DNA of 64,000 bases from Synechococcus sp. CS-1332 (GTDB lineage Bacteria > Cyanobacteriota > Cyanobacteriia > PCC-6307 > Cyanobiaceae). Positions within the stretch are counted from its first letter, which is position 1. Each line of letters opens with the position of its first letter. Positions 12,607-53,142 of the stretch are shown here, one piece after another. The stretch is taken from assembly GCF_025127995.1 (NCBI RefSeq), contig NZ_JAHLYP010000049.1:1-64000 (forward strand), read 5' to 3'. Below the pieces are notes generated by a model. The model made no database searches, had not been told where the DNA came from, and saw only the letters and a program-made list of their open reading frames with translations. A program made the translations under genes and the position numbers.

Positions 12607-12617
12607 GAGTCAAAGAA

Positions 12618-13314: not shown

Positions 13315-13370
13315 CAGCCGCTGCCGGATGGCCCCTCTACCGATAGGGTGACGCCCCACGCAGGCGGGTC

Positions 13371-13631: not shown

Positions 13632-13652
13632 GACGCGCAGGAAGGCCCCTGG

Positions 13653-15257: not shown

Positions 15258-15323
15258 GGCGGCTGGGCACTGCCCATCGGAACGCACGGCAGTATGGCCT
15301 TCCTCCCCCGGGCACCCCGTCCC

Positions 15324-16339: not shown

Positions 16340-16572
16340 GGACCGACCTCATACATTTCTAGCGCTTTTGCACTGTTCAGTCTGAACACTAATGGAAACT
16401 CTTTGCATTCCTTAAGGCCTGCAGGCCCGGGCGCCACCCCGCTTCGGAGGTGTATTCCGGGATTGCTTTGGTATCGAATCAGACATTGAACGGGCAGCAC
16501 GTCATGGATATTCGGAACTTGTTGATGCCGGTACTGGCGTCAGAAGTCGGACATTCTCTTCACCACGTTCCC
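16340..16572 (+). promoter_or_regulatory. Intergenic and leader region of the ammonium transporter
   Basis: About 230 bp between divergent genes. Besides the palindrome at 16374-16388, it holds a near-match to an NtcA site, GTA-TCGAATCA-GAC at 16471-16484, one base off the GTA-N8-TAC consensus. In-frame start candidates for amt lie here at 16450 (GTG) and 16504 (ATG). Nitrogen control by NtcA is the family expectation for amt genes, but the site is imperfect. Confidence 0.3.
16374..16388. promoter_or_regulatory. Perfect 15-bp palindrome, operator-like
   Basis: TGTTCAG-T-CTGAACA is a perfect inverted repeat with a single central base. It is 35 bp upstream of the DUF4278 ATG and about 185 bp upstream of the amt start. 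Position and symmetry suggest a dimeric regulator site; the regulator is not identified. It does not match the NtcA consensus GTA-N8-TAC. Confidence 0.4.
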
Positions 16573-18018: not shown

Positions 18019-18043
18019 CCCCACCGGTTCAGTCTTTTGGCGC

Positions 18044-18070
18044 ACCGCGGCTTCGGCCGCGGTTTTTTTT
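18044..18070 (+). terminator. Intrinsic terminator after amt
   Basis: A perfect 8-bp stem, ACCGCGGC/GCCGCGGT, closed by a TTCG tetraloop and continuing into eight T residues. It lies 26 bp after the amt stop and isolates amt from ispH. Confidence 0.93.
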
Positions 18071-18121
18071 CGCTCGTCCCTGCACCGCTCCCCATAGAGT
18101 CGGCCCAATTGGTACTTGCCT

Positions 18122-38366: not shown

Positions 38367-38481
38367 GGGCTGCAGGCTAGGGGGGCCGGTGGCCTGCCAT
38401 CAGGCCGGCACCCCCTGCAGCCATCAGGTGGCGCCAGCCTGCTACGACCGGCGTGCCCCTACCCCGCGTCCGCGCCGCGCC

Positions 38482-39951
38482 ATGGCCTCCGCCCCCCTGC
38501 CCCTCGAGGCCGGACCGATCCACTTCGGCACCGATGGCTGGCGCGGCATCCTCGGGGTGGACATCACCATGGAGCGCCTGCTGCCGGTGGCCGCTGCCGC
38601 CGCCCGGGAGCTGGCCGCCAGCGCCCCGGCGGACCTGGAGAGCCGGGAGGTCGTGATCGGCTACGACCGACGCTTCCTGGCGCCGGAGCTGGCCGAAGCC
38701 ATCGCCGCCGCCGTGCGGGGGGCGGATCTGGTGCCCCTGCTGGCCGCCAGCCCCGTGCCCACGCCGGCCTGCAGCTGGGCGGTGGTGGAACGAAAGGCCC
38801 TGGGGGCCCTGGTGATCACCGCCAGCCACAACCCGCCGGAATGGCTGGGGCTCAAGATCAAGGGTCCCTTCGGGGGCTCGGTGGAAGGCGACTTCACCGC
38901 CCGGGTGGAGCGGCGCCTCGAGGCAGGGGGCCTGAGCGTGCCGATCCCCGGCGACACCGAGCGCTTCGATGCCATGGGCACCTACCTGGCCGGACTCGGC
39001 GCCAAAATCGATGTCCCTGCCCTGGTGACGGGCCTGGCCGGCATCGGCCTGCAGGTGATCGTGGATCCGATGCATGGCTCGGCCGCTGGGGGGCTGCCGG
39101 CCCTGCTGGGGGAGGCGGGCGCCGCCGCCGGTGTGATCCGGGAGATCCGCGGCGAGCGGGATCCCCTGTTCGGCGGCCACCCGCCCGAACCGCTGGCGCC
39201 CTACCTGGGGCAGCTGATCGCCGAAGTGCGCCAGGCCACGGCGGCCGGCCGGCCGGCGGTGGGCATCGTCTTCGATGGCGACGGCGACCGCATCGCCGCG
39301 GTGGATGAACAGGGCCGGTTCTGCAGCACCCAGCTGCTGATGCCACTGCTGATCGACCACCTGGCCAGGGCCCGCCGACTGGGCGGCCGCGTGGTCAAGA
39401 CCGTGAGTGGCTCCGATCTGATGGCCCTGGTGGCCGCGGACCTGGGCCGGGAGGTGATCGAGATGCCCGTCGGGTTCAAGTACATCGCCGCCGAGATGCT
39501 GAGCAGCGAGGTGCTGGTGGGGGGAGAGGAATCGGGCGGGGTGGGCTTCGGCATCCACCTGCCGGAGCGGGATGCCCTGTTCGCCGCCCTGCTGCTGATC
39601 GAAGCCCTGGTGGAAGGGGGGCTGCCCCTCGGTGCCCGGCTGGCTGCCCTGCAGGAGCGCTGCGGTGGCGCCAGCGTCTACGACCGCCTTGATCTGCGCC
39701 TGCCGGACATGGCCAGCCGCGGCCGGCTGGAGGCGCTCCTGGCCCAGGATCCGCCCCAGGAGGTGGCCGGTGCCGCCGTGGTGGAGGTGAACCGCACCGA
39801 CGGCGTCAAGCTGCGGATGGGCCCCAGCCACTGGCTGATGCTGCGCTTCTCCGGTACCGAGCCCTTGCTGCGCCTCTATTGCGAAGCCCCCGATGCCGAG
39901 CGGGTGCAGGCGGTACTGGCCTGGGCACGGCAGCTGGCGGAGGCGATCTGA
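38482..39951 (+). CDS. Phosphoglucomutase/phosphomannomutase family protein
   Basis: Alpha-D-phosphohexomutase of 489 residues from the ATG at 38482. All four signature elements are in order: phosphoserine loop VITASHNPPEW near residue 115, metal loop VFDGDGDRIAAVDE near 263, the sugar loop GGEESGGVGFG near 344, and the phosphate loop RFSGTEPLLRLYCEAP near 458. The opening FGTDGWRGILGVDIT is typical of the cyanobacterial PGM/PMM group. Which hexose it prefers cannot be read from sequence. Its stop and the rdgB start share one base. Confidence 0.92.
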   Translation: MASAPLPLEAGPIHFGTDGWRGILGVDITMERLLPVAAAAARELAASAPADLESREVVIGYDRRFLAPELAEAIAAAVRGADLVPLLAASPVPTPACSWAVVERKALGALVITASHNPPEWLGLKIKGPFGGSVEGDFTARVERRLEAGGLSVPIPGDTERFDAMGTYLAGLGAKIDVPALVTGLAGIGLQVIVDPMHGSAAGGLPALLGEAGAAAGVIREIRGERDPLFGGHPPEPLAPYLGQLIAEVRQATAAGRPAVGIVFDGDGDRIAAVDEQGRFCSTQLLMPLLIDHLARARRLGGRVVKTVSGSDLMALVAADLGREVIEMPVGFKYIAAEMLSSEVLVGGEESGGVGFGIHLPERDALFAALLLIEALVEGGLPLGARLAALQERCGGASVYDRLDLRLPDMASRGRLEALLAQDPPQEVAGAAVVEVNRTDGVKLRMGPSHWLMLRFSGTEPLLRLYCEAPDAERVQAVLAWARQLAEAI

Positions 39952-40619
39952 TGGCAGACCCACTGGAGCCCCCATTGGAGCCAAGGGTGGACCCCACCGT
40001 GCTGGTCATCGCCAGCGGCAACGCCGGCAAGATCAGGGAATTCGCCCACCTGTTGGCCTCTCTCCCTCTGGCGGTGCGGCCCCAGCCCGACGGCCTTGAG
40101 GTGGAGGAAACGGGCACCAGTTTCGCCGCCAATGCTCGGCTGAAGGCCGAAGCGGTGGCCAGCGTCACGGGCCAGTGGGCCCTGGCCGACGACTCGGGGC
40201 TGGCGGTGGCGGCCCTGGGCGGCGCCCCCGGGGTGCATTCGGCCCGCTATGCCGACAGCGACGCGGCCCGGATCGCCCGGCTGCTGAAGGAACTAGGAGA
40301 GAGTGATCGTCAGCGCCACGGGCAGGCTCTGCCATCGGATCGCCGGGCGGCCTTCGTGGCTGCCCTGGCGGTGGCCGATCCCACCGGAGCGATCCGGCTG
40401 GAGGTGGAGGGCCGCTGCGAGGGGGAGATCCTGGAGACTCCGCGGGGCAGCGGCGGCTTCGGCTACGACCCGGTGTTCTTCGTGCCCACCGAAGGCCTGA
40501 GCTACGCCGAGATGGATCAGGGACTCAAGGGGCGGATTGGTCACCGGGGCAGGGCCTTCGCCCAGCTGGAGCCGAGGTTGCGGGACCTGCTGGAAGCCCT
40601 CCGGCCCCCAGCCCCCTAA
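39951..40619 (+). CDS. rdgB: Non-canonical purine NTP pyrophosphatase (RdgB/HAM1 type)
   Basis: Removes dITP, ITP and XTP from the nucleotide pool. The 222 residues show IASGNAGKIREFAHLL near the start, ETGTSFAANARLKAEA and ALADDSGLAVAALGGAPGVHS with the catalytic Asp. The C-terminal block GGFGYDPVFFVP ... GRAFAQLEP also fits. The start ATG shares one base with the preceding stop (TGATG), implying coupled translation. Its 3' end overlaps the opposing glycosyltransferase by 4 bp. Confidence 0.95.
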   Translation: MADPLEPPLEPRVDPTVLVIASGNAGKIREFAHLLASLPLAVRPQPDGLEVEETGTSFAANARLKAEAVASVTGQWALADDSGLAVAALGGAPGVHSARYADSDAARIARLLKELGESDRQRHGQALPSDRRAAFVAALAVADPTGAIRLEVEGRCEGEILETPRGSGGFGYDPVFFVPTEGLSYAEMDQGLKGRIGHRGRAFAQLEPRLRDLLEALRPPAP

Positions 40620-41758
40620 CGAAGGACGGGAGCCGGTCTCCCGCTCTCTAGGGCCATGGTCAGGTCATCGGCCATCGCCGCGGCCCGCTTTTCCCAGGTG
40701 CATCCCGTCGCGAACCGATGACGCACGTCTGCCCGGCCGTCCCTGAAGTTGGCGGCGGCCAGGCGTTCGAGGGTGGCCATGAGGGCCTGACCGTCGGCGC
40801 AGTGATAGGCAAGGTGAGGGGTTTCGGCGATCTGATCGCAGGTGCCGGTGTACAGGATGGGCTGACCGGTGGGTAGCTGGGAGAAGAACCGGACCGGGCT
40901 GCTGCAGGGGTTGATGTCGTCGTCCGTGAGGGGTAGTACGGCCGCGTCGACGGAGGCGAAGTAGGCCTGCAGGCTCTCGTAGGGCTGGGCGCCGACGAAG
41001 CGGCAGCGAGGGCTTCTCTGGAGGTGGGCGAGCCCGGGAACCTGGCAGCGGACAGGCCCCACGAATAGCCAGCGAAGCTCGGGCAGGCCATCATGGGCCT
41101 GCACGATCGGCTGTAGGTCGATGCGTGTGCCGATCACGCCGATGATGCCGATCAGGGGCCGGAAATCCGCCGGCAACAGCTCCGGTGGCGGGGCGGGGTG
41201 GGGAGGGAGCTCGGGAGGTAGCCAGGCCTCGGGGATGCCGTTGGGAATGATGTGAAAGCGGGATTCCTCCAGTCCGTACCGATCGCGGAGCACCTCGGCG
41301 AGCCCACGCGACACCGTGAAGATGAGATCGGCATGGCGGGCAAGAAGTTTCTCCTGATCAAGCCGGACATAGGGATAAGCCGCATAGTCATCAAAGACGT
41401 GATAGGCGATGACGGAAGCCAGACTGCGGAAGTGAATGGCATAGGGCCAGAAGTAGGGATCGGTGATGATCAGCGCATCGGCTTGGCCGTAGGTGCGCAG
41501 CAAACGCCGTTCCACCAGGGGGGCAAGCAACCTGACCAGCCAGCGATGACGGGAGAAGGCGCCGCGGGGGATGACGCAGTTGAGGCCGCGGCGGTGGCCA
41601 AACTCAGGCAACCATCCCCGCAAACTGAGCCGTGGGGTGAGGTGCTGCACCTCCCAAATCTGCTCCAATGCAGCGAAGAGTTCCCGATGATAGGGCTCTT
41701 CGGAGCCCACCACAAAGAGGCGTCGAAACCGGGAAGTCGTCCTCGCTGAATCAGTCAC
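40616..41758 (-). CDS. GT-B glycosyltransferase (family 1/4-like)
   Basis: Protein of 380 residues forming the left boundary of the glycosyltransferase region. It begins with a Rossmann-like half (RLFVVGSEEPYHRELFAAL); HADLIFTVSRGLAEVLR and FHIIPNGIPEAWLP sit before the domain junction. The C-terminal half has LIGIIGVIGTRIDLQPIVQA, then SVDAAVLPLTDDDINPCSSP and VRFFSQLPTGQPILYTGT, the acceptor and nucleotide-sugar region. No membrane segment. Donor and acceptor unknown; surface polysaccharide synthesis is inferred. It overlaps rdgB by 4 bp and is divergent from the next transferase. Confidence 0.85.
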   Translation of the reverse strand: MTDSARTTSRFRRLFVVGSEEPYHRELFAALEQIWEVQHLTPRLSLRGWLPEFGHRRGLNCVIPRGAFSRHRWLVRLLAPLVERRLLRTYGQADALIITDPYFWPYAIHFRSLASVIAYHVFDDYAAYPYVRLDQEKLLARHADLIFTVSRGLAEVLRDRYGLEESRFHIIPNGIPEAWLPPELPPHPAPPPELLPADFRPLIGIIGVIGTRIDLQPIVQAHDGLPELRWLFVGPVRCQVPGLAHLQRSPRCRFVGAQPYESLQAYFASVDAAVLPLTDDDINPCSSPVRFFSQLPTGQPILYTGTCDQIAETPHLAYHCADGQALMATLERLAAANFRDGRADVRHRFATGCTWEKRAAAMADDLTMALESGRPAPVLR

Positions 41759-41969
41759 GTCAGGACGAGTTGATCATGGCTAAATCATCATAGACGACCC
41801 CAGAGGTCAGCATCCGACCTGTGCTACCGACGCTGAAACAAACGGCGATACGAAGGCCAGGACCAGCGAAGACGTCCTGAGACGCAAGTCTCCAGGAATT
41901 TACTGTGACAACAATTCAGGCTAAGGCGTGTATCCTTGCCGTAGATGAAGTCTTCCCGAGTCGCCGGTC

Positions 41970-43079
41970 ATGCCAGATTCTGCTGAGGCGGACGGAGATC
42001 ATCGACCAACAGTCGTTTTCCTGCCGGACAAGCGACTCTTCAACCCCTACCAGACCAGGTTGGCCGAGGCGCTATCCAGCCAGGGGTTCAATGTTGTCGT
42101 CAAGGACCATCCGCCACTTCTGGGAGCCTTCTGTCGACAGCAAAGGTTGTACGAAAATAATGTCATCGTTCATCTTCACTGGCTCAACGGCCTGACTGAC
42201 AAGGCAGTGTATGCCCAGTCCGGAATCCGATTCCTCATCTGGTACGTACTGGTCACAATCGACCTCACCATCTTCAGGCTACGTGGAGGCAAGTTGTTCT
42301 GGACCGTCCATAACCTGATCAGCCATGAATGTCCGAACCCCTCAAGAGAGATGGAAATGCGGCGCCTGGTCGCCAGGTTGGCCGATGGAATTCATTTTCA
42401 CAGCCAGTCTGCGGTCACACGTGCCCAAGAGGAGTACACCATCCGGCTTCGGCACAAAGCGGTTGTCGCTGCTCACGCCGGCTACCCGGATGACTACCCG
42501 CCAGACAGCTCCAGAACAGAATCAATGGCACTTGAGACCGGCATCAGGAGCGACCACTTCACGTTTCTTTTCTTTGGCACCATTCGCAGCTATAAGGGCC
42601 TGGAGTCCTTGGTCGAGGCCTTCAGTCGGCGTCCGGGACCCCGCTACAGGCTGCTGATCGCAGGTGCCGCCATCCCAGGTGTTTCCATCCAGTGGCTCGA
42701 TCAGGCTTCGGCCCGGGACCCTCGCGTCCTGGTTCGCTCCGGCTATGTTTCCAACCTAGATGTGTCCGCTCTCTTTGCCATCTCCGATGTGCTGGTGGCA
42801 CCTTACAGCGCAACACTGACATCGGGGGTTGTCTCCCTTGGTCTCACCTTTGGCATACCCATGGTGCTTCCAGACGCTGCAAAGGTGTATGACCTTCCTG
42901 GCGACGCCGGCGCCGAGTTTTTCGCACCAGGCAATCTCCCAGAAGCCCTTGCGATGATCGAGACGCGGAATCTGGCCCTGATGCGGGCCCACAACACGAC
43001 ACTTGGGCAGTCTCTGACCTGGGGGAGCATGGCCGAGACGATTGCCATGGCCTACCGGAAGGCCCTTCCAGCGCGTTAA
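41970..43079 (+). CDS. GT-B glycosyltransferase (family 4-like)
   Basis: Protein of 369 residues. The N-terminal domain has RLFNPYQTRLAEALSSQGF and LFWTVHNLISHECPNPSR. The C-terminal domain has FLFFGTIRSYKGLESLVEAF near residue 197 and LVAPYSATLTSGVVSLGLTF near 275, in place of the common E-x7-E motif. It resembles GT4 enzymes of exopolysaccharide loci. Codon use includes more A/T at third positions than the flanking housekeeping genes. The upstream 210 bp to the divergent transferase holds no further gene. Donor unknown. Confidence 0.85.
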   Translation: MPDSAEADGDHRPTVVFLPDKRLFNPYQTRLAEALSSQGFNVVVKDHPPLLGAFCRQQRLYENNVIVHLHWLNGLTDKAVYAQSGIRFLIWYVLVTIDLTIFRLRGGKLFWTVHNLISHECPNPSREMEMRRLVARLADGIHFHSQSAVTRAQEEYTIRLRHKAVVAAHAGYPDDYPPDSSRTESMALETGIRSDHFTFLFFGTIRSYKGLESLVEAFSRRPGPRYRLLIAGAAIPGVSIQWLDQASARDPRVLVRSGYVSNLDVSALFAISDVLVAPYSATLTSGVVSLGLTFGIPMVLPDAAKVYDLPGDAGAEFFAPGNLPEALAMIETRNLALMRAHNTTLGQSLTWGSMAETIAMAYRKALPAR

Positions 43080-43810
43080 CGCACCGGCGGCGGGGTGTTC
43101 AGGACCTCGAGCAGGACCCGCCTTGCTTCGCAGCACATCGCATCAAGGTGCTGCGAGGCGGCGGCACCGGCTGCCTGAGGATTCCGGAGATACCGGATCA
43201 TCTCAGGCGCGAAATCGAAGGTTCTGGCGGCCACGGAAACTACTGGAGAAACTGGCATTCCCTCCACACCAGCCGGGGGGCAGACGATCGCCCTGCCATA
43301 GGCCATCGCTTCCACGATCCTGGATTCAAAGGATCACGTCTGATCGCCTCAATCCTCGGCGCTCATCATCCTGACTCGGAGAAATCCAGAAGTCGCCTGG
43401 TACTAGCTTGGAATCACGTAGCAACATGGTGCGATCCGCGAATACGTCGCGACAATCAAGAATCTTCAGACACCTTGAGCCAAAGGCCGCATAAAAGGCT
43501 AAACCAAAGACATCAGGCATAGGCATACGCCTGTAATCAGCTGCTCTCTGGATGCGACGCGCCTGGGCAAGCCAGACTGAAAGAAACCATTCATGCAAGG
43601 GGCGATTACTGAGTGAACTGCCACGCTGCCCTCCCGCCGGGCGGCAACGGGAACGGACCCGAGCAACAGCAATGCGACGTCCGTCCAGGGACACCAAAGA
43701 GTGCTGGACACCAGCTCGCCAGACGAAGACGTGGATCCATTGGTCAACGACTCTGCTGGTCTGCTCCTTTTCCTCTGTGGAAAGGTCAACACCAGCGAGG
43801 TGGATTTCTC
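43076..43810 (-). pseudogene. Decayed GT4-like glycosyltransferase with internal deletion
   Basis: Two pieces of one glycosyltransferase lie in different frames. The C-terminal piece (43076-43320) reads RIVEAMAYGRAIVCPPAGVEGMP, a typical donor-binding end. The upstream piece (about 43326-43800) reads PMPDVFGLAFYAAFG, KILDCRDVFADRT and then FWISPSQDDERRGLRRSDVIL before a TGA. In intact relatives roughly 150-200 residues separate these blocks; here they join within a few bases near 43320, indicating a deletion. The upstream piece also lacks a start codon and is preceded by a stop. The end overlaps the preceding transferase by 4 bp. Confidence 0.75.
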
Positions 43811-43918
43811 ATCCCCTAGAACGCTGATCGTCAAGCAAAGCAGCCGAGCGGCTTCGATTGCCGGTGCAGGGAGGGCCGACGCCGATCCTTGAGATCAGCA
43901 GGAGGCCTCGATCGGTCA

Positions 43919-44215
43919 TCAGCCCACCCCCAGATCCCCCATGGCCGGAACCCACCCCTGCAAGGTCCAGTCAACGCTGCCGCTGACGATCATCGGATCC
44001 TGAAGCACCAGTGACTTGGCGGCTTCATGGTCCAAGGCCTCAAGCACCAGCAGGCCGCCGCCACCGGGCTGCCCATGGCCATCCACCAGGTAGCCGCTGC
44101 TGATCCTGCGCCCTTCCCGGCGGAGCCGCTCCACCCAACGCCGGTGCTCCTGCAGGTGCGGGATCATCTGGTCGTAGGGGAGAAGAAAGGATTCGGTCTT
44201 GATGAACCAGGCCAT
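43919..44215 (-). CDS. YciI-like protein
   Basis: Protein of 98 residues from the ATG at 44215 (MAWFIKTESFLLPYDQM). The ferredoxin-like YCII fold is recognised from HLQEHRRWVERLRREGRRISSG, with the conserved His, and GGLLVLEALDHEAAKSLVLQDP ending ... VDWTLQGW. YciI proteins are small dimeric barrels of mostly unknown activity. The gene is divergent from the Nif11-type peptide gene; the two starts are 79 bp apart. Confidence 0.82.
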   Translation of the reverse strand: MAWFIKTESFLLPYDQMIPHLQEHRRWVERLRREGRRISSGYLVDGHGQPGGGGLLVLEALDHEAAKSLVLQDPMIVSGSVDWTLQGWVPAMGDLGVG

Positions 44216-44294
44216 GGCTTGCTCAAGATGCGAGGCGGGATCAAGGGATCCGCCCTGGAAGGGAGTAGAACGGAGTAACCCAATAGATCGTCCC

Positions 44295-44459
44295 ATGTCT
44301 AAATCTCAGCTCAACGCCTTTCTCGCCAAGGTGGCCGCCGACCCCGGCCTCAAGGCACGGGTGGATGCGGCGGCTGATGCCGATGCCGTGGTGGCCCTTG
44401 CCCTCTCCGAGGGTCATCTCTTCTCCCCCGCCACCTTCACCCGCTTCTCCCGCGGCTGA
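44295..44459 (+). CDS. Nif11-type leader peptide domain protein, stand-alone
   Basis: Protein of 54 residues: MSKSQLNAFLAKVAADPGLK, then ARVDAAADADAVVALALSEG and a short tail ending FTRFSRG. The pattern (QL-AFL-KV--D--L, then A-DADAVV-LA---G) fits Nif11-like leader domains, which serve as leader sequences of lanthipeptide and related precursors in picocyanobacteria. No double-Gly cleavage site with a downstream Ser/Thr/Cys-rich core is present, and no LanM-type enzyme is in the window. It may be a leader remnant or a free regulator. It lies 78 bp before a GT32 gene. Confidence 0.7.
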   Translation: MSKSQLNAFLAKVAADPGLKARVDAAADADAVVALALSEGHLFSPATFTRFSRG

Positions 44460-44537
44460 AGCCTGCACATTCTGTATCAATCCCTGGCAAAGCCCTTAGG
44501 GTTTCCAAGTGCTCCCGTTGTGCCGCGACGTTGAACG

Positions 44538-45431
44538 ATGCAGGAACGGAGTGAAACCAACCAGGCCATCCCTTGGCTGCTCTCCACCGCTTCCCTCAAG
44601 TCCCATCCAGTGGCTTCCCGAGGCGTTCCCAGGATCATCCACCAGACGTTCAGCGAAAGGAGTCGTCTGCAGCCCGTCTTGGAGAAAAATTGCCTTGCGA
44701 TAGAAGCGCTCAATCCCGACTTTGAGTATCGCTTCTATGAAGATCGCGACTGCAAAAGCTTCATCGAGGAGACCTTCGGAAAAGCAATCCTGGCCAGGTA
44801 TCTCCGAATTGATCCCAGTTTCGGTGCCGCCCGGGCAGATCTTTTTCGCTATCTTTGCCTCTATCACTATGGTGGCGTTTATCTGGACATCAAGGCCAGG
44901 CTTACGTTGCCCCTCTCCGGCGTTCTACGCGACGATGATTCGTTTCTGCTGAGCCAATGGGATCACTCGCTAGACAGTCAATATGCCGGCTGGGGGACCC
45001 ATTGGCGACTCAATGGCATTGCCGGAGGTGAATACCAGCAGTGGTACATCATCGCGTCACCAGGGCATCCCTTTCTTGCGGCGGTGATAGCCAACGTGAT
45101 AAAGAACATCGATTCCTTTAATCCCTTCTCCTTCGCTAATCCATGGGAAGCGGTCATCTGCACCACTGGCCCTGTGGTGTACACGAGCAGCATTGATCAG
45201 ATCCTGGATTCCCATCCGCACCGTCGGCTCAGCAACAGCGAAGAGATTGGGATCAATTACAGCATCTTTGCTGAGAGCAAAGACCCAGATGCCCATCGGC
45301 GGCTCTACAAGGATTACCGAAAAGCCGAAACCCCACTGATCCGCCAGTCTTTCCCCCTCTACCTGCTGTGGGTCCAGCTGACCTGGGGCCGGAAAGTGTG
45401 GCGCAGAATCCGCAGACTCCTGAGCCGCTGA
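44538..45431 (+). CDS. GT32-type glycosyltransferase (OCH1/capsular sugar type)
   Basis: Protein of 297 residues with the DXD-sugar-binding region. GVPRIIHQTFSERSR near residue 35 is the usual entry and LNPDFEYRFYEDRDCKSFIE follows. The acceptor helix and DXD motif region is ARADLFRYLCLYHYGGVYLD near residue 93. GTHWRLNGIAGGEYQQWYII and TGPVVYTSS come later. A basic amphipathic C-terminus (WRRIRRLLSR) could bind the membrane face. Relatives add mannose or galactose to cell-surface glycans. It lies convergent to the carotenoid oxygenase, 1 bp away. Confidence 0.88.
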   Translation: MQERSETNQAIPWLLSTASLKSHPVASRGVPRIIHQTFSERSRLQPVLEKNCLAIEALNPDFEYRFYEDRDCKSFIEETFGKAILARYLRIDPSFGAARADLFRYLCLYHYGGVYLDIKARLTLPLSGVLRDDDSFLLSQWDHSLDSQYAGWGTHWRLNGIAGGEYQQWYIIASPGHPFLAAVIANVIKNIDSFNPFSFANPWEAVICTTGPVVYTSSIDQILDSHPHRRLSNSEEIGINYSIFAESKDPDAHRRLYKDYRKAETPLIRQSFPLYLLWVQLTWGRKVWRRIRRLLSR

Positions 45432-45432
45432 C

Positions 45433-46914
45433 TTAGGCCGCCACCCAGCTGCCATGCAGGCCATGGGGGATCGCCAGTGGCAGTTCCACCAGCGCCAGCT
45501 CCTCCATGGAGGCGGCATCCAGCACCACCAGATCACTGGCGCTGCGGGCCCCGTTCCAGTACAGGCCGAGCACCCAGCCGTCATCCTCGGCGGTCGCTCC
45601 GGGACGGGGAACCATGATCGGCTCGCTGACGAACCCCCGCGGAGCGGCGCTCCAGACCCGGGTCTCGCCACCGTGGAGATCCAGCTTCATCAGAGCCTGC
45701 AGGGGGTCGTTGCCCTGCTCCCGCTCGGCCACCGCCATCCAGCCGTAACGGCTCTCGAGCCCCACCCGTGCCGGGGCCACCATGGCGAATTCGCAGGTGC
45801 GTTCACTCAACCTGGAGGACGTGACCGTGCCGCTGGCCAGATCAAGACGGCAGCGCTCCAGCAGACCCGCCGGAATTCGGTCGAAATCCACTTCCTTGTA
45901 GTCCTGGTCGGGGCCGATGGAGGGGAAATCGGCGTAATAGATGCTGTCGATCACCACCGCACCACCGTCTTCCCAGGCGTTGAGGTGGTGGAACACGAAA
46001 CCTTCCGGAGCCTCCAGGAGCCGCGGTTCCTGGCCGGCGAAGGCACCGTCCTGGCGAGGGATCAACCAGAACTGGCCCCGGGCGCCGGGGCGTGATTTCA
46101 GGCACTGGGCGGCCCCTTTGCGGCCGAGCACGAAGGGAAGGGGATTGAAATCGATCGCGTTCTGCAGGAACACCGCCCAGTTGGGGGTGATGGCGAAATC
46201 GTGCAGAAAGGCAAAGCCAGGGAAGCTGTGGCTGGAGTCGGCCAGGAGAGTGCCCGCCTCAGAACCTTCAGCGGCGAACTCCATCAGCCGCACCGTGCTG
46301 CGGGGGCCGGCTTTCACCCCGAAAGTGACCATCCGCGGCGCTCCGTGATGGCCAGGATCGAAGCGGGGGTGGGCACTGAAGGCCTCACCTGGCTTGAGAA
46401 CGCCGTCCAGCAGGGTCAGGCCCTGCGTTTCCAGGCTGAGCGGATCCAGGGCATGGGGGGAACTGGCCTCCCAGAGGGCGAGGAGCTGGTCGCCGAGCCG
46501 CACCACGTGCGTATTGGCGATGTTCTTGAGCCGCAGGTCGAAGGCATTGGCCAGGACCCCACCCGGCTTGGGTGTGCCGAACACGCCGCGATACAGATAG
46601 GCACCAGCCTTTTCTTCCTCCAGCCAGCCCTCGGTGCGCACGAAGCGGTTGCTAAGCCGGGCGCCGCCAGCGGTGAACCGCAGGGCGGTGATCATCCCGT
46701 CGCCATCGAAGGGATGGTGGACCCAATGGCCGTCGCGCTCAAGCCGGCCGGGGCCGTTGCGATAGAGCGTGCCGCTCAGCTCGGCAGGGAGCGTTCCCCG
46801 GCTGGCCACCAGGGGCACATCAGTGAGCTCTTCGGTGACATTGCGAAAGGAGCTGGCCCAGTCGGAGCGTTCGTAGGAAGGCGAAGCCGCGGCAGCAGGG
46901 GAAGCAACGGTCAT
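45433..46914 (-). CDS. Carotenoid cleavage oxygenase
   Basis: Non-heme iron(II) dioxygenase of 493 residues that cleaves carotenoids or apocarotenoids. The four iron-binding His are visible in the seven-bladed propeller order: HPRFDPGHHGAPR region near 196, LHDFAITPNWAVF near 250, FHHLNAWEDGGA near 315 and AIPHGLHGSWVA at the C-terminus. The opening TLYRNGPGRLERDGHWVHHPFDGDG is typical. No signal peptide. Substrate choice cannot be told from sequence. Confidence 0.93.
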   Translation of the reverse strand: MTVASPAAAASPSYERSDWASSFRNVTEELTDVPLVASRGTLPAELSGTLYRNGPGRLERDGHWVHHPFDGDGMITALRFTAGGARLSNRFVRTEGWLEEEKAGAYLYRGVFGTPKPGGVLANAFDLRLKNIANTHVVRLGDQLLALWEASSPHALDPLSLETQGLTLLDGVLKPGEAFSAHPRFDPGHHGAPRMVTFGVKAGPRSTVRLMEFAAEGSEAGTLLADSSHSFPGFAFLHDFAITPNWAVFLQNAIDFNPLPFVLGRKGAAQCLKSRPGARGQFWLIPRQDGAFAGQEPRLLEAPEGFVFHHLNAWEDGGAVVIDSIYYADFPSIGPDQDYKEVDFDRIPAGLLERCRLDLASGTVTSSRLSERTCEFAMVAPARVGLESRYGWMAVAEREQGNDPLQALMKLDLHGGETRVWSAAPRGFVSEPIMVPRPGATAEDDGWVLGLYWNGARSASDLVVLDAASMEELALVELPLAIPHGLHGSWVAA

Positions 46915-47001
46915 CGGGTCAGGCCAAGGCGGGGAACAGCGTCAAGCGCTGTCCCAATTATCACGTAACAGAGTGTGAAGACGTGGGCGGTCGTCCCGAC
47001 C

Positions 47002-47160
47002 TCAGACGTCGCAGGGCAGTTCCACCACCGGGCAGGGGGGCTGGGAAACCGCACAGGGCGAGACCTGGGCCTGGCTCGGCAGGCAGTTGGCGGCACGGGC
47101 CGGAGCGGCCAGAGCGATGGCGGCGGCAAGACCCGCAACAAGCAGTTGAAGAGGAGGCAT
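47002..47160 (-). CDS. Small secreted cysteine-rich peptide
   Basis: Protein of 52 residues. A clear Sec signal (MPPLQLLVAGLAAAIALAAP, then ARA) precedes a mature part of about 29 residues with four Cys in CLPSQAQVSPCAVSQPPCPV and a final CDV. Even spacing and Pro content suggest a disulfide-stabilised mini-protein in the periplasm. The ATG at 47160 has a plausible purine-rich upstream region. It sits between the carotenoid oxygenase and hisB on the same strand. I recognise no family. Confidence 0.6.
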   Translation of the reverse strand: MPPLQLLVAGLAAAIALAAPARAANCLPSQAQVSPCAVSQPPCPVVELPCDV

Positions 47161-47184
47161 GGGGCCTAAAAGACTTTTGAAAGG

Positions 47185-47868
47185 CTAGTCGCCACCAGCG
47201 GGGTTGCCTCCAGCGCGCTCCAGCACCCCCTTGCTGCTTGGCACGGCCCCGCCCCGGCGGGGATCGATCTCCACCGCCTGGTCGAGGGCCCGGGCGAACG
47301 CCTTGAAACAGGCCTCCACGATGTGGTGGGAGTTCACTCCCGCCAGCTGGCGGATATGGAGGGTGAGGCCGGCATTGTTGGCCACGGCCACGAAGAACTC
47401 CCGCACCAGTTCGGTGTCGTAGGTGCCGATGCGCTGGGCGGGGATGGCCAGGTCGTAGCTGAGGTGGGGCCTGCCGGAGCAGTCGAGCGCCACTTGCACC
47501 AGGGCCTCATCCAGGGGAGCCAGGAAGTGGCCGAAGCGACGGATACCGCGCCGGTCGGCCAGGGCCTGGGCAAGCGCCTGACCCACCGCGATGCCCACGT
47601 CCTCATTGGTGTGGTGATCATCGATGTGGGTGTCGCCCCTGGCGGTGATCTCCAGATCCAGCAGGCCATGGCTGGCGAGCTGGTGGAGCATGTGGTCGAG
47701 GAAGGGGACGCCGGTGGCCACCTGGCAACGGCCGGTGCCATCCAGATCAAGCGCGACATGAACGTCCGTCTCGCCGGTGACGCGATGGATCTCGCCGGTG
47801 CGCGGTGGGCCGGTTCGCGAAGAGCTGATGGTCACGCGGGCGAAGGCGACGGGCCTGATCCGAATCAT
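47185..47868 (-). CDS. hisB: Imidazoleglycerol-phosphate dehydratase
   Basis: Sixth step of histidine synthesis, a Mn-dependent dehydration. Metal ligands are clustered as in the family: [36 protein letters not shown] and [19 protein letters not shown]. The ATG at 47868 gives 227 residues; a GTG at 47834 (VTISSSRTG) gives 216, closer to the usual size of about 200. Divergent from the carbonic anhydrase gene. Confidence 0.94.
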
Positions 47869-47962
47869 GCCAAAGCCCTGGCGGCCACGCCCTGACGACC
47901 GGACGCCCACATGGTGTGGAGCGCTACGGCACGGGGCCGCCGGGGATGGTGGTGTGGGCCCT

Positions 47963-48565
47963 ATGCCGACCTGTCCCGGTGCCGTCCTCGACCAGCTACG
48001 CGCCGGGCACCAGCGCTTTCTTGACGGCCATTCGCTCCACCCCCACAGCGATCGCCTGCGGATGCTGGAGGTGGAAGCAGGCCAGAACCCCGTGGCGGCC
48101 GTGCTGGGCTGCGCCGATTCGCGGGTGCCAGTGGAGCTGCTGTTCGATACGGGCTTCGGGGATCTGTTCGTGGTGCGCAACGCCGGCACCATGAGCACCG
48201 TGGCCGCCATCGCCTCGCTCGAATACGCCGTGAGCTATCTGGAGGTGCCTGTGATCGTGGTGCTCGGCCACGCCGCCTGCGGCGCTGTGGCGGCGGCCTT
48301 CGATCGGGGGCTCAGCCTGACGCCGAGCCTGGCCCAGGTGGTGGGCCAGCTGCGCATGGAGCTGTTCAGCCTCGGCGGTGAACACAACCTGGAGGAGGCC
48401 TGCCGCCATCACACCCTCAATGCGGCCCGCAATCTCGTCGATTCCAGCGTGATGCTCACCGACAGGCTCAGGTCTGGCAGCTTGCAGGTGGAGGCGGCTT
48501 ACTACAACCTCCACACCACCAGCATTGAGTGGATGGGCACTGTGATGCCGATGCGGCAGGGGTGA
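47963..48565 (+). CDS. Beta-carbonic anhydrase
   Basis: Zn enzyme interconverting CO2 and bicarbonate, 200 residues from the ATG at 47963. Zn ligands are Cys and Asp in [15 protein letters not shown] and His and Cys in [14 protein letters not shown]. Short overall, it lacks the C-terminal extension of carboxysomal CcaA. It is therefore more likely a soluble or periplasm-independent enzyme, but location is inference. No signal peptide. It lies between hisB (divergent) and a glycosyltransferase. Confidence 0.93.
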
Positions 48566-48593
48566 ACCCTCGGTGTGCCTGGCGAGTGGACGA

Positions 48594-48625
48594 GACATCC
48601 GCTCAGGCAGACATCCGCTCAGGCA
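48594..48625. repeat. Two tandem copies of a 16-bp unit
   Basis: GACATCCGCTCAGGCA occurs twice without spacing (48594-48609 and 48610-48625). The second copy contains the stop codon of the glycosyltransferase read from the other strand. The duplication would change the length of the 3' end and looks recent. Confidence 0.9.
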
Positions 48626-49797
48626 GACTTCCACCCCATGGCGACGTCCAAGGCCGCCAGGATCCGATCCACCCGACTCTCCCAGGTCTGGGCTCTGGCG
48701 AAGGCCACACGCGCCTTGAACTTGTCAGGCCCATCGGATGCCAGTTCTTCATCAATGGCCTGCAGGAAACGCTCGGGATCGCTTTCGATCCGAATCAGGT
48801 GACTGGCCAGGTCCAATCCCTCCACGGCTGAAGAGACGACCGGCTTTCCACTGGCAATGTACTGAAAAAGCTTCAGTGGGCTCATCGATCTGGAAAAGGG
48901 AGTATCGAGATGTGGAATGAGGCAGAGATTCATCCTTTTCAACTGCGACGGCACCTGATCGTTGGGGATGCTCCCGAGCCACTCGACATTATCGAGGCCT
49001 AGCAGCCCCGAGTCCGAAAGACGCCTGTTGAGTTCCGGGCCGACCAAAAGGAGCTTGCAATGCCGCCGCTCCAGAGCGAGTCTGAGGAGCAGATCGATAT
49101 CGGTTCGGTCCCAGAAGGTCCCGACATAGCCGAGGACCGGTTGGGGGCCACAGGGCCGAAAGTCCGAAGCCTCCGCCAGAAACGAGGAGCTCACGGCCTG
49201 ATCGATGCGAACGCAGCGAGACTGAAGCGAAAACTTCTCCTCATTGACTCTGGAGGTGACCGCGATGAGATCAGACAGGCCACCCAGACGCGGATACTGA
49301 TCAATCGCAAAGGGGTAGTACCAATCATCTTTATCAACCAAGGTAAAATCATCCACAACCTGCATGATTCGTGCTGCAGCAGGAACTTGCCGCACCAACT
49401 CATCAACGATTGGATGGGCAGGGAACAACCAAAGCAACGTATTCGACTTACTAAATCCATAAGCTTTGATCAGTCGCTTGAGCGCGATTCGCTCCCGCTC
49501 AAGCTTCATTCTGGAACCCAGGCTTCTTAACCGAAAGGGCGTGATTCCACCCAGCCTCCAATACAAACGGACGACAGCCAGCTTGTCGGAAGCCGTCTGC
49601 CTGGAATTCGCGAGGCACTCCCCTTTTGAGGAGGGCAAGACAACCAGAACCTGTCGCACATGGTCCAGCCGGCTCAGCGTCGTGGCAATCTGCTCGTAGG
49701 TTCGGCCAAAAACTCCCCAGTCGTCACCGAACCAGAACAACAGGATATGGGTGAGCTTTCGATGACTGGAAGTTCCAGGATCCCGGGCTTGAATCAT
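48619..49797 (-). CDS. GT-B glycosyltransferase (family 1/4-like)
   Basis: Protein of 392 residues. The N-terminal half begins HILLFWFGDDWGVFGRTYEQ, followed by LLWLFPAHPIVDELVRQVPA and VVDDFTLVDKDDWYYPF. The C-terminal half shows VLGYVGTFWDRTDIDLLLRL and LCLIPHLDTPFSRSMSPLKL, then FQYIASGKPVVSS, a GT4-like donor site. Third codon positions are clearly less GC-rich than in housekeeping genes (for example around 49200-49450). Its stop lies in a 16-bp tandem duplication. Role in surface glycans is inferred. Confidence 0.85.
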   Translation of the reverse strand: MIQARDPGTSSHRKLTHILLFWFGDDWGVFGRTYEQIATTLSRLDHVRQVLVVLPSSKGECLANSRQTASDKLAVVRLYWRLGGITPFRLRSLGSRMKLERERIALKRLIKAYGFSKSNTLLWLFPAHPIVDELVRQVPAAARIMQVVDDFTLVDKDDWYYPFAIDQYPRLGGLSDLIAVTSRVNEEKFSLQSRCVRIDQAVSSSFLAEASDFRPCGPQPVLGYVGTFWDRTDIDLLLRLALERRHCKLLLVGPELNRRLSDSGLLGLDNVEWLGSIPNDQVPSQLKRMNLCLIPHLDTPFSRSMSPLKLFQYIASGKPVVSSAVEGLDLASHLIRIESDPERFLQAIDEELASDGPDKFKARVAFARAQTWESRVDRILAALDVAMGWKSA

Positions 49798-49899
49798 TGC
49801 GGCTTCTGGCGGAAATCAGAACAAAGGAATCTCAGAATCGGCAGAACGCAAAGAAAGTCTGCTGGTGGGGAAGTCAAGAAGGACTGCAGAGGAAAGAAC

Positions 49900-50853
49900 T
49901 CAGTCAATGATCCAGCCAAGTTGCCTTCCCCGTCGCGTTTTGTAACTAAGCTGACATCGTTCAAGAGCCTGGGCGACCTGCACATTGGCCCAGGACATGA
50001 GGTTTAATCGCTCGCCAAGTAGCACATATCTGAACCAGGAGACTATCCTGCCACGATAAACGAAAGAGCTGAAGCTCGAACGCTGGCAGGTCCCCCAGAA
50101 GTGACGTGACAGACCAGCGATCATGAGATCGGTGACGACCGAACGGTTGATGTCCTGCTTTGAGAGTCCCTCCTGCCGGAGCCGTTCCTCATCAAGATGA
50201 TGAATACCAAGCCCATCCCCGACCTTGACCACAGGGACTATGGAGGGGCATGAGATATTGAACTGACGGCACATGTCGACGACTTCAAAGCTATCCGTGA
50301 TCACGACCGATCGGCGTCGGCCTGAATATCCAGCGATGGCTCTCAGTATCTCTTTGGGGCAGCCGCCAGAAGCATCCGTATGCCGAACATGCCAGCATTC
50401 ATAGGCACCCGGCACCAGGTCCATCTCATTCATTCGACTCATCACCGCCTGCTTGATGTCCTGATGCAACCGAAGGATGCGGAACAGTCGATTGGAGTAG
50501 CGAGCCAGATAGCGGCAAACGACAAGAGTATCCCACGGCCCATCAGGATCCTGATCAGGTTCCGTGAGGAAGTCACCATTCAGCGCCCCGTGGCAATTCA
50601 GGGGATTTTTGGTTATCGAGCAGGCGTAGCGTGATGGCATCACCTGGCCAAAGCCGTCCTCAGGCCGCACAAAAGCCATTTCAGAAGGACAAGAAAGCTG
50701 GAAATAGTTCTCGAAAGAATCACTCCATGAGTTGTGCGTCCAATCAACGCAGAGAGCGGCATTCCAATGGCTGGCAAGATCACAGCAGTACCCCAGGACC
50801 TGCAGGCGATTACCAAGTCCCGCAATCCCCTTGACGACGACAGTTCGGCGCAT
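49900..50853 (-). CDS. Fucosyltransferase-like protein (NodZ/FUT8 type, GT23-like)
   Basis: Protein of 317 residues from the ATG at 50853 (MRRTVVVKGIAGLGNRLQVL). The GLGNRLQ loop and the WHVRHTDASGGCPKEIL segment near residue 155 correspond to GDP-fucose-binding elements of NodZ/FUT8-type alpha-1,6-fucosyltransferases. SRRRSVVITDSFEVVDM resembles their later nucleotide loop. Upstream ATGs at 50868 and 50919 would add residues without motif support. The match is by pattern, so donor identity is tentative. The gene is in the less GC-rich island. Confidence 0.7.
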   Translation of the reverse strand: MRRTVVVKGIAGLGNRLQVLGYCCDLASHWNAALCVDWTHNSWSDSFENYFQLSCPSEMAFVRPEDGFGQVMPSRYACSITKNPLNCHGALNGDFLTEPDQDPDGPWDTLVVCRYLARYSNRLFRILRLHQDIKQAVMSRMNEMDLVPGAYECWHVRHTDASGGCPKEILRAIAGYSGRRRSVVITDSFEVVDMCRQFNISCPSIVPVVKVGDGLGIHHLDEERLRQEGLSKQDINRSVVTDLMIAGLSRHFWGTCQRSSFSSFVYRGRIVSWFRYVLLGERLNLMSWANVQVAQALERCQLSYKTRRGRQLGWIID

Positions 50854-51053
50854 CAACACAACTCCCATGATCCACCCTAGCCATAAAATTTTAGACCTGG
50901 TCATCCAGAACAACAGCAAGCCCCGATGGGGATCCCCGGCCTATCCAGCACCCAGGGCTCCCATGATCGGGGAGACGCCAAGTCAAACCCGTTGTCGACG
51001 CTTCACAACCAGCCCCCCCAACCTTTCCGCACGCACTGCGAGCCCAACCCTTA
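50854..51053. other. Intergenic region between fucosyltransferase-like gene and GT61 remnant
   Basis: About 200 bp. I see no gene, tRNA, clear promoter or terminator here. The 5' flank of the fucosyltransferase-like gene occupies the left half. Confidence 0.4.
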
Positions 51054-52293
51054 GTGATAAGCCGGCAACGACTTACCGAGGCTCCGAACGTTGTGGCTCT
51101 GCCAGCTTTCCCCATCGCCCTCCAAGGCAGGCCGACAGAGTGGTTGCCCTGGGATCCAGTGCAGATCGAGGCGGTGATCGAGGCCCTCGCCGCCATCACC
51201 ACTCCGCCCCGACGCGGCGAGGTCCAGCATGATCGCGGTGCCCCGACCTCAGCCGCCCAAAGCCTGGGCAACCCCGTGGCGGTCGTCGAACCCGCAGCCA
51301 TCTTCGGGGGTTGTCCTCCGCGACATATCGGCCATTTCCTGCACGAGGGCCTCAGCCGACCCTGGAGGCTGGGTCAATGGGAGAACAGCGATCCTCTGAT
51401 CACAGGCCTCCGGAGCCGGGTGCAGGCGAAAGGGGCGGATGTGGTGGTCTTCATGCTCCGCTGGCTGGATGGCGGCAAGGACCTTCCCGCCTCCATGGCC
51501 GGGGTGCTCACGGGACTGCGACTGCCCCCCGAGTGAATCCGCACACTGGTGGAACCGACACTGGTTCTCCATCTGCTGATCCCGGCCCAGTTCTGGGGAT
51601 TGAGTTTCGATCCGCCCGCGCCCGGCTGGAACGACCGCCTCAGCTGTGGCTGCCGTCAACCGAAGCGCGCACTGCTGGGCAACGACGCCATTCCTGCCGC
51701 CCCTGGCGAAGATGGGTTGCTGCCCCTGGAGAAGCTCTCGATCACCCGCACCGGGTGCCCCTCCAGCACGGTCTTCAGAGCGGCGACGTCTTCCTCGACC
51801 GGCTGATGGAGGCCGCCGGCGTTGGAATCGTCCACCCGAACGCCACACAGATACATCTGTATTCGAGGGCGCGGGAGCTGGTCTTCATGCAAGGTAGGGG
51901 TATGTACCCGCTCTTGTTCGATCACCTGCGGCCAGGGGTTCGCATCCGGGGATTCTGCGACATCGTCTGGGGGCCTGAATGTGCGCTCAGCTGAAGCGCC
52001 TGCTGCGACCAACTGCAGGCCTGCGCTGGCGGCTCCTCGATGCCCTGAAGGCGGAAATCCTCACCTCCCCGAAGGACTGGGAATCCCGCACTCTCGCGGA
52101 CATGCCTGCACTGGCCAACCAGCTGGCCCCGACAACCTTCCTGCCAAGTGAGCAGATATGGCACACGTTGATGGCCCATACCAAAGAGCTCGTGGCCCAC
52201 GGAGACGCTGCTCAAATGGAAGGAGTCCTGGTTGCACTGCTCAGCCAGTTAGTTGCTCCCACCGTCGGAGCGGCCAATGTGGGGCACGCGTAG
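51054..52293 (+). pseudogene. Decayed GT61/DUF563-like glycosyltransferase
   Basis: Remnant in three frames. Piece one (51054-51536) contains AIFGGCPPRHIGHFLHEGLS then GADVVVFMLRWLDGGKDLP and ends at a TGA; the same frame resumes with LVEPTLVLHLLIPAQFWGLS. Near 51755 the homology shifts frame to SGDVFLDRLMEAAGVGIVHP and QIHLYSRARELVFMQGRGMY. A third frame (51979-52293) reads LKRLLRPTAGLRWRLLDALK. The GHFLHE block and the VHP...RARELVFMQG block are hallmarks of GT61 proteins. One nonsense change and at least two shifts make it non-functional. Confidence 0.75.
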
Positions 52294-52331: not shown

Positions 52332-53114
52332 TCACATCCCCGTGATGCAATACCCCGCATCCACGTAGATCACCTGTCCGGTGATGCCGCTGGCCAGGGG
52401 GCTGGCCAGGAAGGCGGCGGTGGCACCCACCTCGTCCTGGGTGACGGTGCGGCGCAGGGGGGCCTTTTCCTCGACGTTGTGGATCATGTCGAGGATGCCG
52501 CCGATCGCCGAGCTGGCCAGGGTGCGGATCGGGCCGGCGCTGATGGCATTCACCCGCACCTGCTGTTCAGGGCCCAATTCGGCTGCCAGGTAGCGCACCG
52601 AAGCCTCCAGGGCCGCCTTCGCCACCCCCATCACGTTGTAGTTGGGGATCGCCCGCTCGGCGCCTAGGTAGCTCAGGGTGATCACGCTGGCCCCCTGGCT
52701 GAACAGGGGTTTGGCATGGCGGCACAAGGGCGCCAGGGAATAGGCGCTCACCTCCAGCGCCCGGGCGAAGCCCTCCTGGCTGATGGCGCTGAAATCACCC
52801 ACAAGCTCGTCCTTGCCGGCGAAGGCCAGGCAATGGATCAGCACATCCAGCGAACCCCACTGCTGGGAGACGCGCTGGAACAGGGCCTCGATCTGGGCCG
52901 GGTTCTGCACATCCAGGGGCTCGAACAGGGTCGGGTTCAGGGGCGCGGTGAGTTCGCGCACCTTGCCCTCGAAGCGGCCCCGGTCGTCCGGCAGGTAGGT
53001 GATGCCCAGCTCGCAGCCCGCCGCCGCCAGCTGCTGAGCGATGCCCCAAGCGATCGAGCGGTTGTTGGCGATGCCGGTGACGAGGGCCTTCTTGCCGCGC
53101 AGATCAAGGAGCAT
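52332..53114 (-). CDS. fabI: Enoyl-[acyl-carrier-protein] reductase (NADH)
   Basis: Last step of each fatty-acid elongation cycle. The 260 residues have VTGIANNRSIAWGIAQQLAA at the cofactor site and HCLAFAGKDELVGDF. The catalytic Tyr and Lys are in SYLGAERAIPNYNVMGVAKA, and the loop PIRTLASSAIGGILDM is the usual substrate-binding segment. The ATG at 53114 is preferred; the frame runs upstream only over the divergent transferase gene. Confidence 0.96.
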   Translation of the reverse strand: MLLDLRGKKALVTGIANNRSIAWGIAQQLAAAGCELGITYLPDDRGRFEGKVRELTAPLNPTLFEPLDVQNPAQIEALFQRVSQQWGSLDVLIHCLAFAGKDELVGDFSAISQEGFARALEVSAYSLAPLCRHAKPLFSQGASVITLSYLGAERAIPNYNVMGVAKAALEASVRYLAAELGPEQQVRVNAISAGPIRTLASSAIGGILDMIHNVEEKAPLRRTVTQDEVGATAAFLASPLASGITGQVIYVDAGYCITGM

Positions 53115-53142
53115 GGGGAGCAGGGCGCCGGAGGGCGAGGGG

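Follow-up and report, generated by a model that had tools for sequence, protein, structure and literature searches.

Glycosyltransferase genes in three slots of a conserved picocyanobacterial backbone: a probable replacement-type genomic island in Synechococcus sp. CS-1332

Does a group of intact and broken sugar transferase genes, lying among housekeeping genes, belong to an ordinary core region, or does it mark a site where such genes are repeatedly gained, exchanged and lost? This question is raised by a stretch of 64,000 nucleotides (the window) of Synechococcus sp. CS-1332, which lies on contig C32 of a 2.97-Mb genome. Of the glycosyltransferase (GT) genes between positions 40616 and 52293, two are broken and five intact, one of the five being a probable GT. 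They are interspersed with rdgB, YciI, Nif11, a carotenoid oxygenase (CCO), a small secreted peptide, hisB, a beta-carbonic anhydrase (CA) and fabI. Three gaps, or slots, can be defined: slot A between rdgB and YciI, slot B between Nif11 and CCO, and slot C between CA and fabI. These slots hold strain-specific sets, mostly of GT genes, on a conserved core backbone; slots A and B differ in history from slot C, and are filled independently of it. The stretch is probably a flexible genomic island of the replacement type in a Cyanobium-like clade, in which core genes separate three slots whose contents move between lineages.

The housekeeping genes were followed through 80 named picocyanobacterial loci, found through CCO and comprising the best 80 of 318. 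The backbone order, fabI-(CA)-hisB-CCO-(Nif11/YciI)-rdgB-pgm, is interrupted in some of these loci and out of order in none (0 of 80). Where both genes of a pair were found, fabI precedes hisB in 53 of 53 cases, hisB precedes CCO in 62 of 62, and CCO precedes rdgB, as rdgB does pgm, in 54 of 54. All four pairwise orders occur together in 38 of the 80 loci, the absences being due in part to contig ends. The order extends to marine Synechococcus WH7803 and RCC307. In WH7803, there is no GT at the site: the fabI-hisB and hisB-CCO gaps measure 50 bp and 68 bp, and a 7-kb gap between CCO and rdgB (11568-18399 of locus L152) has six frames, for a SIMPL protein, MFS and BCCT transporters, an oxidoreductase, a dehydrogenase and a methyltransferase, a set serving transport and amino-acid metabolism. 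Since the order is kept as far as the marine strains, and these gaps lack GTs, the housekeeping genes represent the old frame of the site. An earlier note on this DNA, made from the letters alone, had described GTs interleaved with housekeeping genes; the interleaving is real, but the housekeeping genes are not passengers. From the gene contents compared, the site takes different genes in different clades, with GTs in the clade of the window.

CA was not found between hisB and fabI in loci L046 (genome G013) and L044 (G034), and outside the closest dozen of the 80 named loci it was found only in L140 and L148. Its occurrence being patchy, CA belongs to the variable part of the site. One record in the survey (L106), titled 'MAG: Bifidobacterium breve', carries a cyanobacterial CCO-hisB locus (76% and 89% identity) and looks mislabelled or contaminated.

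The contents of the slots were compared among relatives drawn from the named loci and from 59 other genomes, 36 of the latter being of the same genus; counts out of 41 genus genomes include that of the window. At the same chromosomal location, relatives carry different genes of similar function (Table 1). The order GT1, GT2, GTa, GT32 is common to the window, G007, G017, G012 and G025. Filling is independent: in G025, slots A and B are occupied and C is empty, while in G027 and G013, C is occupied and A and B have no GTs. For eight gene-at-slot characters on a core tree of 13 strains, at least 24 presence changes are needed (3+4+4+2+2+3+3+3), a count that cannot separate gain from loss; a broken copy counted as presence, the distant GTa of G005 or G008 did not, and strains with a contig end in the slot were left out. 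The O-FucT-like gene occurs in four of the 41 genus genomes, each time in slot C beside fabI and once as a remnant. Full-length GT32 matches of at least 70% occur in eight of the 41, all at this site in slot B, with weaker ones here or elsewhere. Judged by these distributions, the GT genes behave as a site-bound pool within the clade. The earlier note had proposed repeated gain and loss at one site, and the count of changes bears this out. The alternative of an ordinary core region fails, given a kept backbone order, varying GT content, and the existence of both empty and decayed slots.

Table 1. Contents of slots A, B and C in the window and in relatives
Strain	Slot A	Slot B	Slot C
Window	GT1, GT2, broken GTa	GT32	GT4c, O-FucT-like, broken GT61
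G017	GT1, GT2, GTa	GT32	GT4c, O-FucT-like
G012	GT1, GT2, GTa	GT32	GT4c, without O-FucT-like
G007	GT1, GT2, GTa, family-2 GT, 230-amino-acid frame (no Pfam match)	GT32	GT4c, two frames (no Pfam match)
G025	GT1, GT2, GTa	GT32, FkbM methyltransferase	empty (61 bp)
G024			empty (62 bp)
Cyanobium CZS25K			empty (within 61-62 bp)
G005	GT1, a GT61, distant GTa in opposite orientation	GT32	fused remnant only
G022	GT1, a GT61	GT32	a GT61
G008	distant GTa up to contig end	GT32	GT61, partial diverged second CA and fabI, 288-amino-acid frame
G003	GT32 (47-48%)	no GT32	GT8
CCY 0621	GT32 (47-48%)	no GT32	327-amino-acid frame, same length as the GT8 of G003
G027, G013	no GTs	no GTs	GT61

The 830 bp between GT2 and GT1 in slot A of G025 have no relative among the slot proteins. 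Slot C of G002 contains a GTa-type GT and a second GT32; from its matching GT32 pieces, G002 is probably the same strain as Microcystis elabens FACHB-917.

Two GT genes of the window had been called broken, and comparison with intact relatives confirms both. GTa is open over 411-437 amino acids in G007, G012, G017 and G025, and the copies of G007 and G012 match Pfam Glyco_trans_1_4. The window copy is without some 360-380 nt of the intact gene: near 43312-43320 it has deletions of 296 and 84 nt relative to G007, or 278 and 84 nt relative to G012, and further indels are present. GT61 is open over 430 amino acids in G022 and G008, with both copies matching Pfam GT61. In the window, it is interrupted by an in-frame TGA at 51534-51536, and by four frame-changing deletions near 51755, 51835, 51847 and 51950, each seen against both G022 and G008. 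Decay is also found beyond the window strain. In slot C of G005, a match to residues 1-42 of the O-FucT-like protein abuts a GT4c match that begins at residue 165, and this fused remnant looks like the outcome of a deletion spanning two genes. GT32 lies in three pieces in slot B of M. elabens FACHB-917, parts of a GT32 are found in slot A of Cyanobium CZS25K, and next to CCO in G024 a weak trace of GT32 is broken by two stops.

A different kind of remnant is seen in G008 (2437-3120 of locus L040), where a partial second CA lies 6 bp from a broken second fabI and adjoins the extra content of slot C. The partial CA has 86% amino-acid identity to that of the window, and the native CA of G008 has 95%. 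The arrangement, on a single metagenome-assembled contig, suggests partial duplication, or a replacement that failed, at slot C.

The GT genes of the window also stand apart in composition, with more A/T-ending codons than the flanks, as the earlier note had observed. The five GTs have a GC content of third codon positions (GC3) of 0.60-0.77, as against 0.80-0.90 for pgm, rdgB, CCO, hisB, CA and fabI; YciI (0.75) and Nif11 (0.78) are intermediate. The seven most deviant of 63 two-kb windows of the tetranucleotide profile all begin between 41001 and 50001. However, the GTs are not simply AT-rich newcomers, since GC3 is at least 0.76 in 14 of the 16 corresponding GT genes of G007, G017 and G012; the exceptions are GT4c of G012 (0.69) and the O-FucT-like gene of G017 (0.59).

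Divergence at synonymous sites is much greater between alleles of one GT than elsewhere in the 64 kb. Identity at four-fold degenerate sites was measured against up to seven relatives (two to seven per frame). The 46 flanking frames have values of 0.70-0.91 (mean 0.80). The lowest six of all 55 frames are those of GTs, five of them intact and one broken, at 0.37-0.53. Frames were kept if their third-position share exceeded 0.42, their coverage exceeded 0.25 and they were found in two to seven relatives, the others being dropped before counting. In this set CA is hidden by an overlapping frame, and the ranking and the GC3 regression include one decayed frame (43329-43808). The effect fades outward through YciI (0.63), CCO (0.69) and hisB (0.76) to the flank mean. 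After regression on GC3, the GT frames still lie at z -6.3 to -10.5, so weak codon bias is not the cause. Codon bias can also be rejected on other grounds: the slope of four-fold identity against GC3 is slightly negative over the 46 flanking frames, and GT pairs of high GC3 are both similar (GT2 of G007 and G012, 0.84 at GC3 0.80) and dissimilar (GT4c of G007 and G017, 0.44 at GC3 0.79). The ratio of nonsynonymous to synonymous divergence (dN/dS, Nei-Gojobori estimates, with large dS values near saturation) is about 0.1-0.3 in the intact GTs where dS is estimable, two GT32 pairs being saturated. This means that the intact GTs have been kept functional. GT1, with 62-75% amino-acid identity to its relatives, was considered as a within-gene mosaic, its N-terminal half being more diverged from G025 and G022 (0.28 and 0.32) than its C-terminal half (0.52 and 0.56); the pattern is not repeated against G007, G017 and G012, and the idea was dropped.

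A case for exchange between lineages is provided by G012. In the core tree, G012 groups with G003 and CCY 0621 (98/98), within the clade of the window, G025 and G008 (100/100), and G007, G005, G017, G022 and M. elabens form a separate group (100/99). The GT trees conflict with this placement: G012 pairs with G007 in the trees of GT1 (100/99) and GT2 (99/99), falls among G007, G005 and G017 in that of GT32, and pairs with G017 in that of GT4c (92/93). In approximately unbiased (AU) tests, GT1 rejects the groups window+G025+G012 (p 9e-5), G007+G017+G022 (p 1.3e-4) and window+G025 (p 0.029). GT2 rejects window+G025+G012 (p 0.006), GT4c rejects window+G012 (p 0.0099), and GT32 rejects G007+G005+G017 without G012 (p 0.004; p 0.012 when G022, G003 and CCY 0621 are left out). 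Conversely, the core rejects G012 with G007, G005 and G017 (AU p ~1e-70). M. elabens FACHB-917 (L093) is placed inside the Cyanobium-like clade in the core tree.

Four-fold identities tell the same story. Between G007 and G012, identity is 0.78 in the core, 0.90 in YciI, 0.79-0.84 in GT1, GT2, GTa and GT32, and 0.38 in GT4c. Between the window and G012, it is 0.79 in the core and 0.46-0.60 in GT1, GT2, GT32 and GT4c. By this comparison, slots A and B, together with the intervening YciI, have had their alleles passed between the G007/G017 and G012 lineages, and slot C has another history. The whole cluster was not exchanged as one unit, as G007 and G012 are alike in slots A and B and unlike in slot C. 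At sites where G007 and G003 differ, G012 is G003-like in hisB (59 of 79), CA (32 of 50) and pgm (72 of 107). Tree conflict between lineages is found together with raised synonymous divergence at the borders.

Simpler or additional transfers were also considered. That only slots A and B moved in G012 can be rejected, since its GT4c departs from the core as well and pairs with that of G017. An exchange of YciI and GT32 between the window and G008, which are 87-90% identical there at the protein level, was likewise discarded: G008 is in the core clade of the window (85/90), and the four-fold identity of GT32 (0.75) is about that of the core (0.76), so descent explains the similarity.

A number of observations weigh against an island of exchanged contents on a constant frame. 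The backbone is broken in some lineages: in 11 of the 80 loci, hisB is missing although the sequence extends 5 kb or more upstream of CCO, and in 8, rdgB is missing although it extends 8 kb or more downstream. The groups used in the AU tests were named after the trees had been seen, and the core pair G007+G017 is not rejected by GT4c (AU p 0.127). The only tree conflicts found for the window itself are in GT1 (window+G025 rejected) and GT4c (window+G012 rejected); its GT2 agrees with the core and its GT32 has no clear conflict. Vertical descent seems to hold for G003 and CCY 0621 (four-fold identity 0.93 in the core, 0.90 in GT32). The site track of G012 is mixed in CCO (79 G007-like and 109 G003-like, of 188) and leans to G007 in fabI (25:14, of 39). 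Its G007-like tracks in YciI (104:4) and GT32 (299:26) are weak evidence, being confounded by the deviant alleles of G003, whose YciI has a four-fold identity of 0.28-0.47 to all compared except CCY 0621. No near-identical recent exchange was seen, the best case being G007 and G012 with about 90% nucleotide identity in GT1, GT2, GTa, YciI and GT32; for this reason, it could not be established where crossovers lay or in which direction transfer went.

How well might other processes account for the locus? A fast-evolving GT cluster could have been inherited vertically, under relaxed or diversifying selection and with lineage-specific loss but no exchange. The shared order of GT1, GT2, GTa and GT32 in five strains would follow from this, as would the similar slots kept by G003 and CCY 0621. 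Yet synonymous as well as protein divergence is raised, and remains so after GC3 correction; the GT trees conflict with the core (AU p 0.012 to 9e-5); and the G007-G012 GTs and YciI are at or above core identity, when those of the window and G012 fall far below an almost equal core value. The explanation is improbable, being contradicted by the tree conflicts; only hidden paralogy with differential loss, requiring several GT copies per slot in the ancestor, could rescue it. Delivery by a mobile element or phage, with the GTs as cargo of an integrase-bearing element, a transposon or a phage, is more improbable still. Marine Synechococcus islands do also carry integrases and transposases, in the parts of Dufresne et al. 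2008 cited here (PMC2441476), but the 64-kb stretch has no tRNA, and no integrase or transposase was found among the slot frames scanned (the slot borders were not searched for attachment repeats). The O-FucT-like gene and GT32 have no relatives in viral contigs by a search that detects close relatives only, GT4c has one match among 50,697 phage records (29.5% identity over 42%), and the same genes recur at one site.

A further alternative accepts the mosaic exchange, and questions its meaning: the product might be a glycan for internal use or storage, or else a glycolipid, with no bearing on phage or grazers, and turnover would reflect weak constraint. Among the slot proteins scanned, none could be recognised as a flippase, a polymerase or a ligase (no genome-wide search for flippase families was made). 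The Wzy_C matches of the genome lie on C57 and, below cut-off, on C30, with none on C32, and the decay of several GTs implies a dispensable product. Against this, the dN/dS of the intact GTs indicates kept function, and in aquatic bacteria, GT islands have mostly been connected with surface structures, according to the portions of the two accounts drawn on here (PMC4033161, PMC2441476). An internal product is therefore rather unlikely, though it deserves more weight than vertical descent or mobile delivery.

If the locus is a replacement-type island, imported DNA from related strains would probably recombine in or near the conserved genes and replace the stretch between them; the second CA and fabI of G008 hint at such a process. 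Homologous recombination might follow natural transformation; ComEC is present in the genome, so DNA uptake is possible. The GT enzymes would act on surface polysaccharide, and phage or grazers, by frequency-dependent selection, could keep many alleles, with disused ones decaying in place. By analogy with other islands, slot turnover probably changes cell-surface sugars, and escape from phage or grazers may be the cause. It is tempting to speculate further that this is a distributed glycan-typing locus, in which hisB, CCO, CA and fabI would act as permanent homology anchors, and surface-glycan types would be assembled slot by slot, in a combinatorial manner, from a site-resident gene pool; this extension is put forward only tentatively.

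The genes of the site are listed in Table 2. Pfam confirms YciI, Nif11, CCO, HisB, beta-CA and FabI as they had been named from the translations. The claim of five intact GTs holds for the four that pass Pfam cut-offs, and the fifth, the O-FucT-like protein, is a probable GT on weak evidence: its AlphaFold model has a mean pLDDT (predicted local distance difference test) of only 34.9, a PDB sequence search gave nothing useful, and an NCBIfam search gave no match. In the window genome, GT32 is the sole match to PF04488, PF04577 has no match, and PF13692 has 27 matches, of which two are in the island and one more is on its contig, beyond the window. Gene calls from codon scores served as a first look, as they missed low-GC GTs and many of their long frames are not genes.

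Table 2. Genes and remnants of the locus, with positions in the window
Feature	Coordinates	Strand	Position and evidence
pgm (phosphohexomutase)	38470..39948	+	backbone, outer anchor; 94-96% amino-acid identity, same place in G003, G005, G007, G012, G017, G022, G025
rdgB/HAM1 nucleoside triphosphate pyrophosphatase	39948..40616	+	slot A left border; Pfam Ham1p_like 185 bits; syntenic
GT1, GT-B type	40619..41758	-	slot A; Pfam Glyco_transf_4 45.5 bits, above cut-off; four-fold identity 0.53
GT2, GT-B type	41970..43076	+	slot A; Pfam Glyco_trans_1_4 35.2 bits, above cut-off; four-fold identity 0.43
Broken GTa, decayed GT-B type GT	43079..43919	-	slot A
YciI-like protein	43922..44296	-	backbone dividing slots A and B; Pfam YCII; itself raised in divergence (four-fold identity 0.63)
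Nif11-type peptide, 54 amino acids	44295..44456	+	NCBIfam TIGR03798 39.1 bits (cut-off 32.3); Pfam Nif11
GT32-type GT	44538..45428	+	slot B; Pfam Gly_transf_sug 34.2 bits (cut-off 23)
CCO	45436..46914	-	backbone; Pfam RPE65 433 bits
Secreted four-cysteine peptide, 52 amino acids	47002..47160	-	backbone, between hisB and CCO
hisB	47188..47844	-	backbone; Pfam IGPD 222 bits
CA	47963..48562	+	slot C left border; Pfam Pro_CA 108 bits
GT4c, GT-B type	48622..49797	-	slot C; Pfam Glyco_trans_1_4 48.9 bits, above cut-off
O-FucT-like, probable fucosyltransferase-like GT	49903..50853	-	slot C; O-FucT 23.8 bits, below cut-off 31.5
Broken GT61, decayed glycosyltransferase 61	51039..52290	+	slot C
fabI	52335..53141	-	slot C right border, backbone; Pfam adh_short_C2 280 bits

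FabI is 87-99% identical in the same-genus genomes that have a full-length match. The small secreted peptide, suspected earlier, is real: it was found at the same position in all of the 12 closest named loci (L085-L096) except L085, with 53-78% identity. It ends in QPPCPVVELPC followed by two residues, and its conservation is weaker in further picocyanobacteria. The Nif11-type peptide extends for about ten residues beyond its leader part, and is retained at the site in relatives.

No description of the fabI-hisB-CCO-rdgB site was found among the titles and abstracts that a search of open-licence papers brought up. Bacterial O-antigen and capsule clusters have fixed core-gene borders at which alleles are replaced by recombination, with raised divergence of the neighbouring genes. 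Those loci are each one contiguous cluster with wzx and wzy, unlike the distributed single GT genes found here. Marine Synechococcus and Prochlorococcus provide another comparison: their islands, in the parts of Dufresne et al. 2008 used here (PMC2441476), are likewise GT-rich and variable, and have been proposed to serve in avoiding grazers and phage. In contrast to the present locus, they carry integrases and transposases, and marine WH7803 has no GT at this site.

The closest likeness is to the replacement islands of Lopez-Perez et al. 2014 (PMC4033161), as far as the cited parts of that account describe them: they are exchanged by homologous recombination, with synonymous peaks in the bordering genes, and phage are the proposed driver. 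Shared features are a single site whose gene sets differ among strains but resemble each other in function, exchange between lineages, a link to exposed glycans, and raised synonymous divergence in the neighbours, here YciI, CCO and hisB. The shadow of exchange over these three genes suggests caution in their use as phylogenetic markers in this group. There are also differences. The regions exchanged in that account always contained the complete cluster, whereas at this locus the variation concerns individual GTs or short blocks, in slots kept apart by core genes, and neither a flippase nor a polymerase gene was recognised. The scale differs as well, with genus-level relatives compared here, and strains of one species with near-identical islands there.

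The locus fits the replacement-island kind, yet core genes divide it into slots that have had two or more distinct histories. Within one clade, slots are found empty, filled or decayed, and sugar-gene turnover, together with its proposed phage or grazer cause, becomes testable in strains that are otherwise syntenic over 64 kb. Accounts of replacement islands speak of a single cluster that is exchanged in full; here, the same turnover acts on single enzymes and small blocks.

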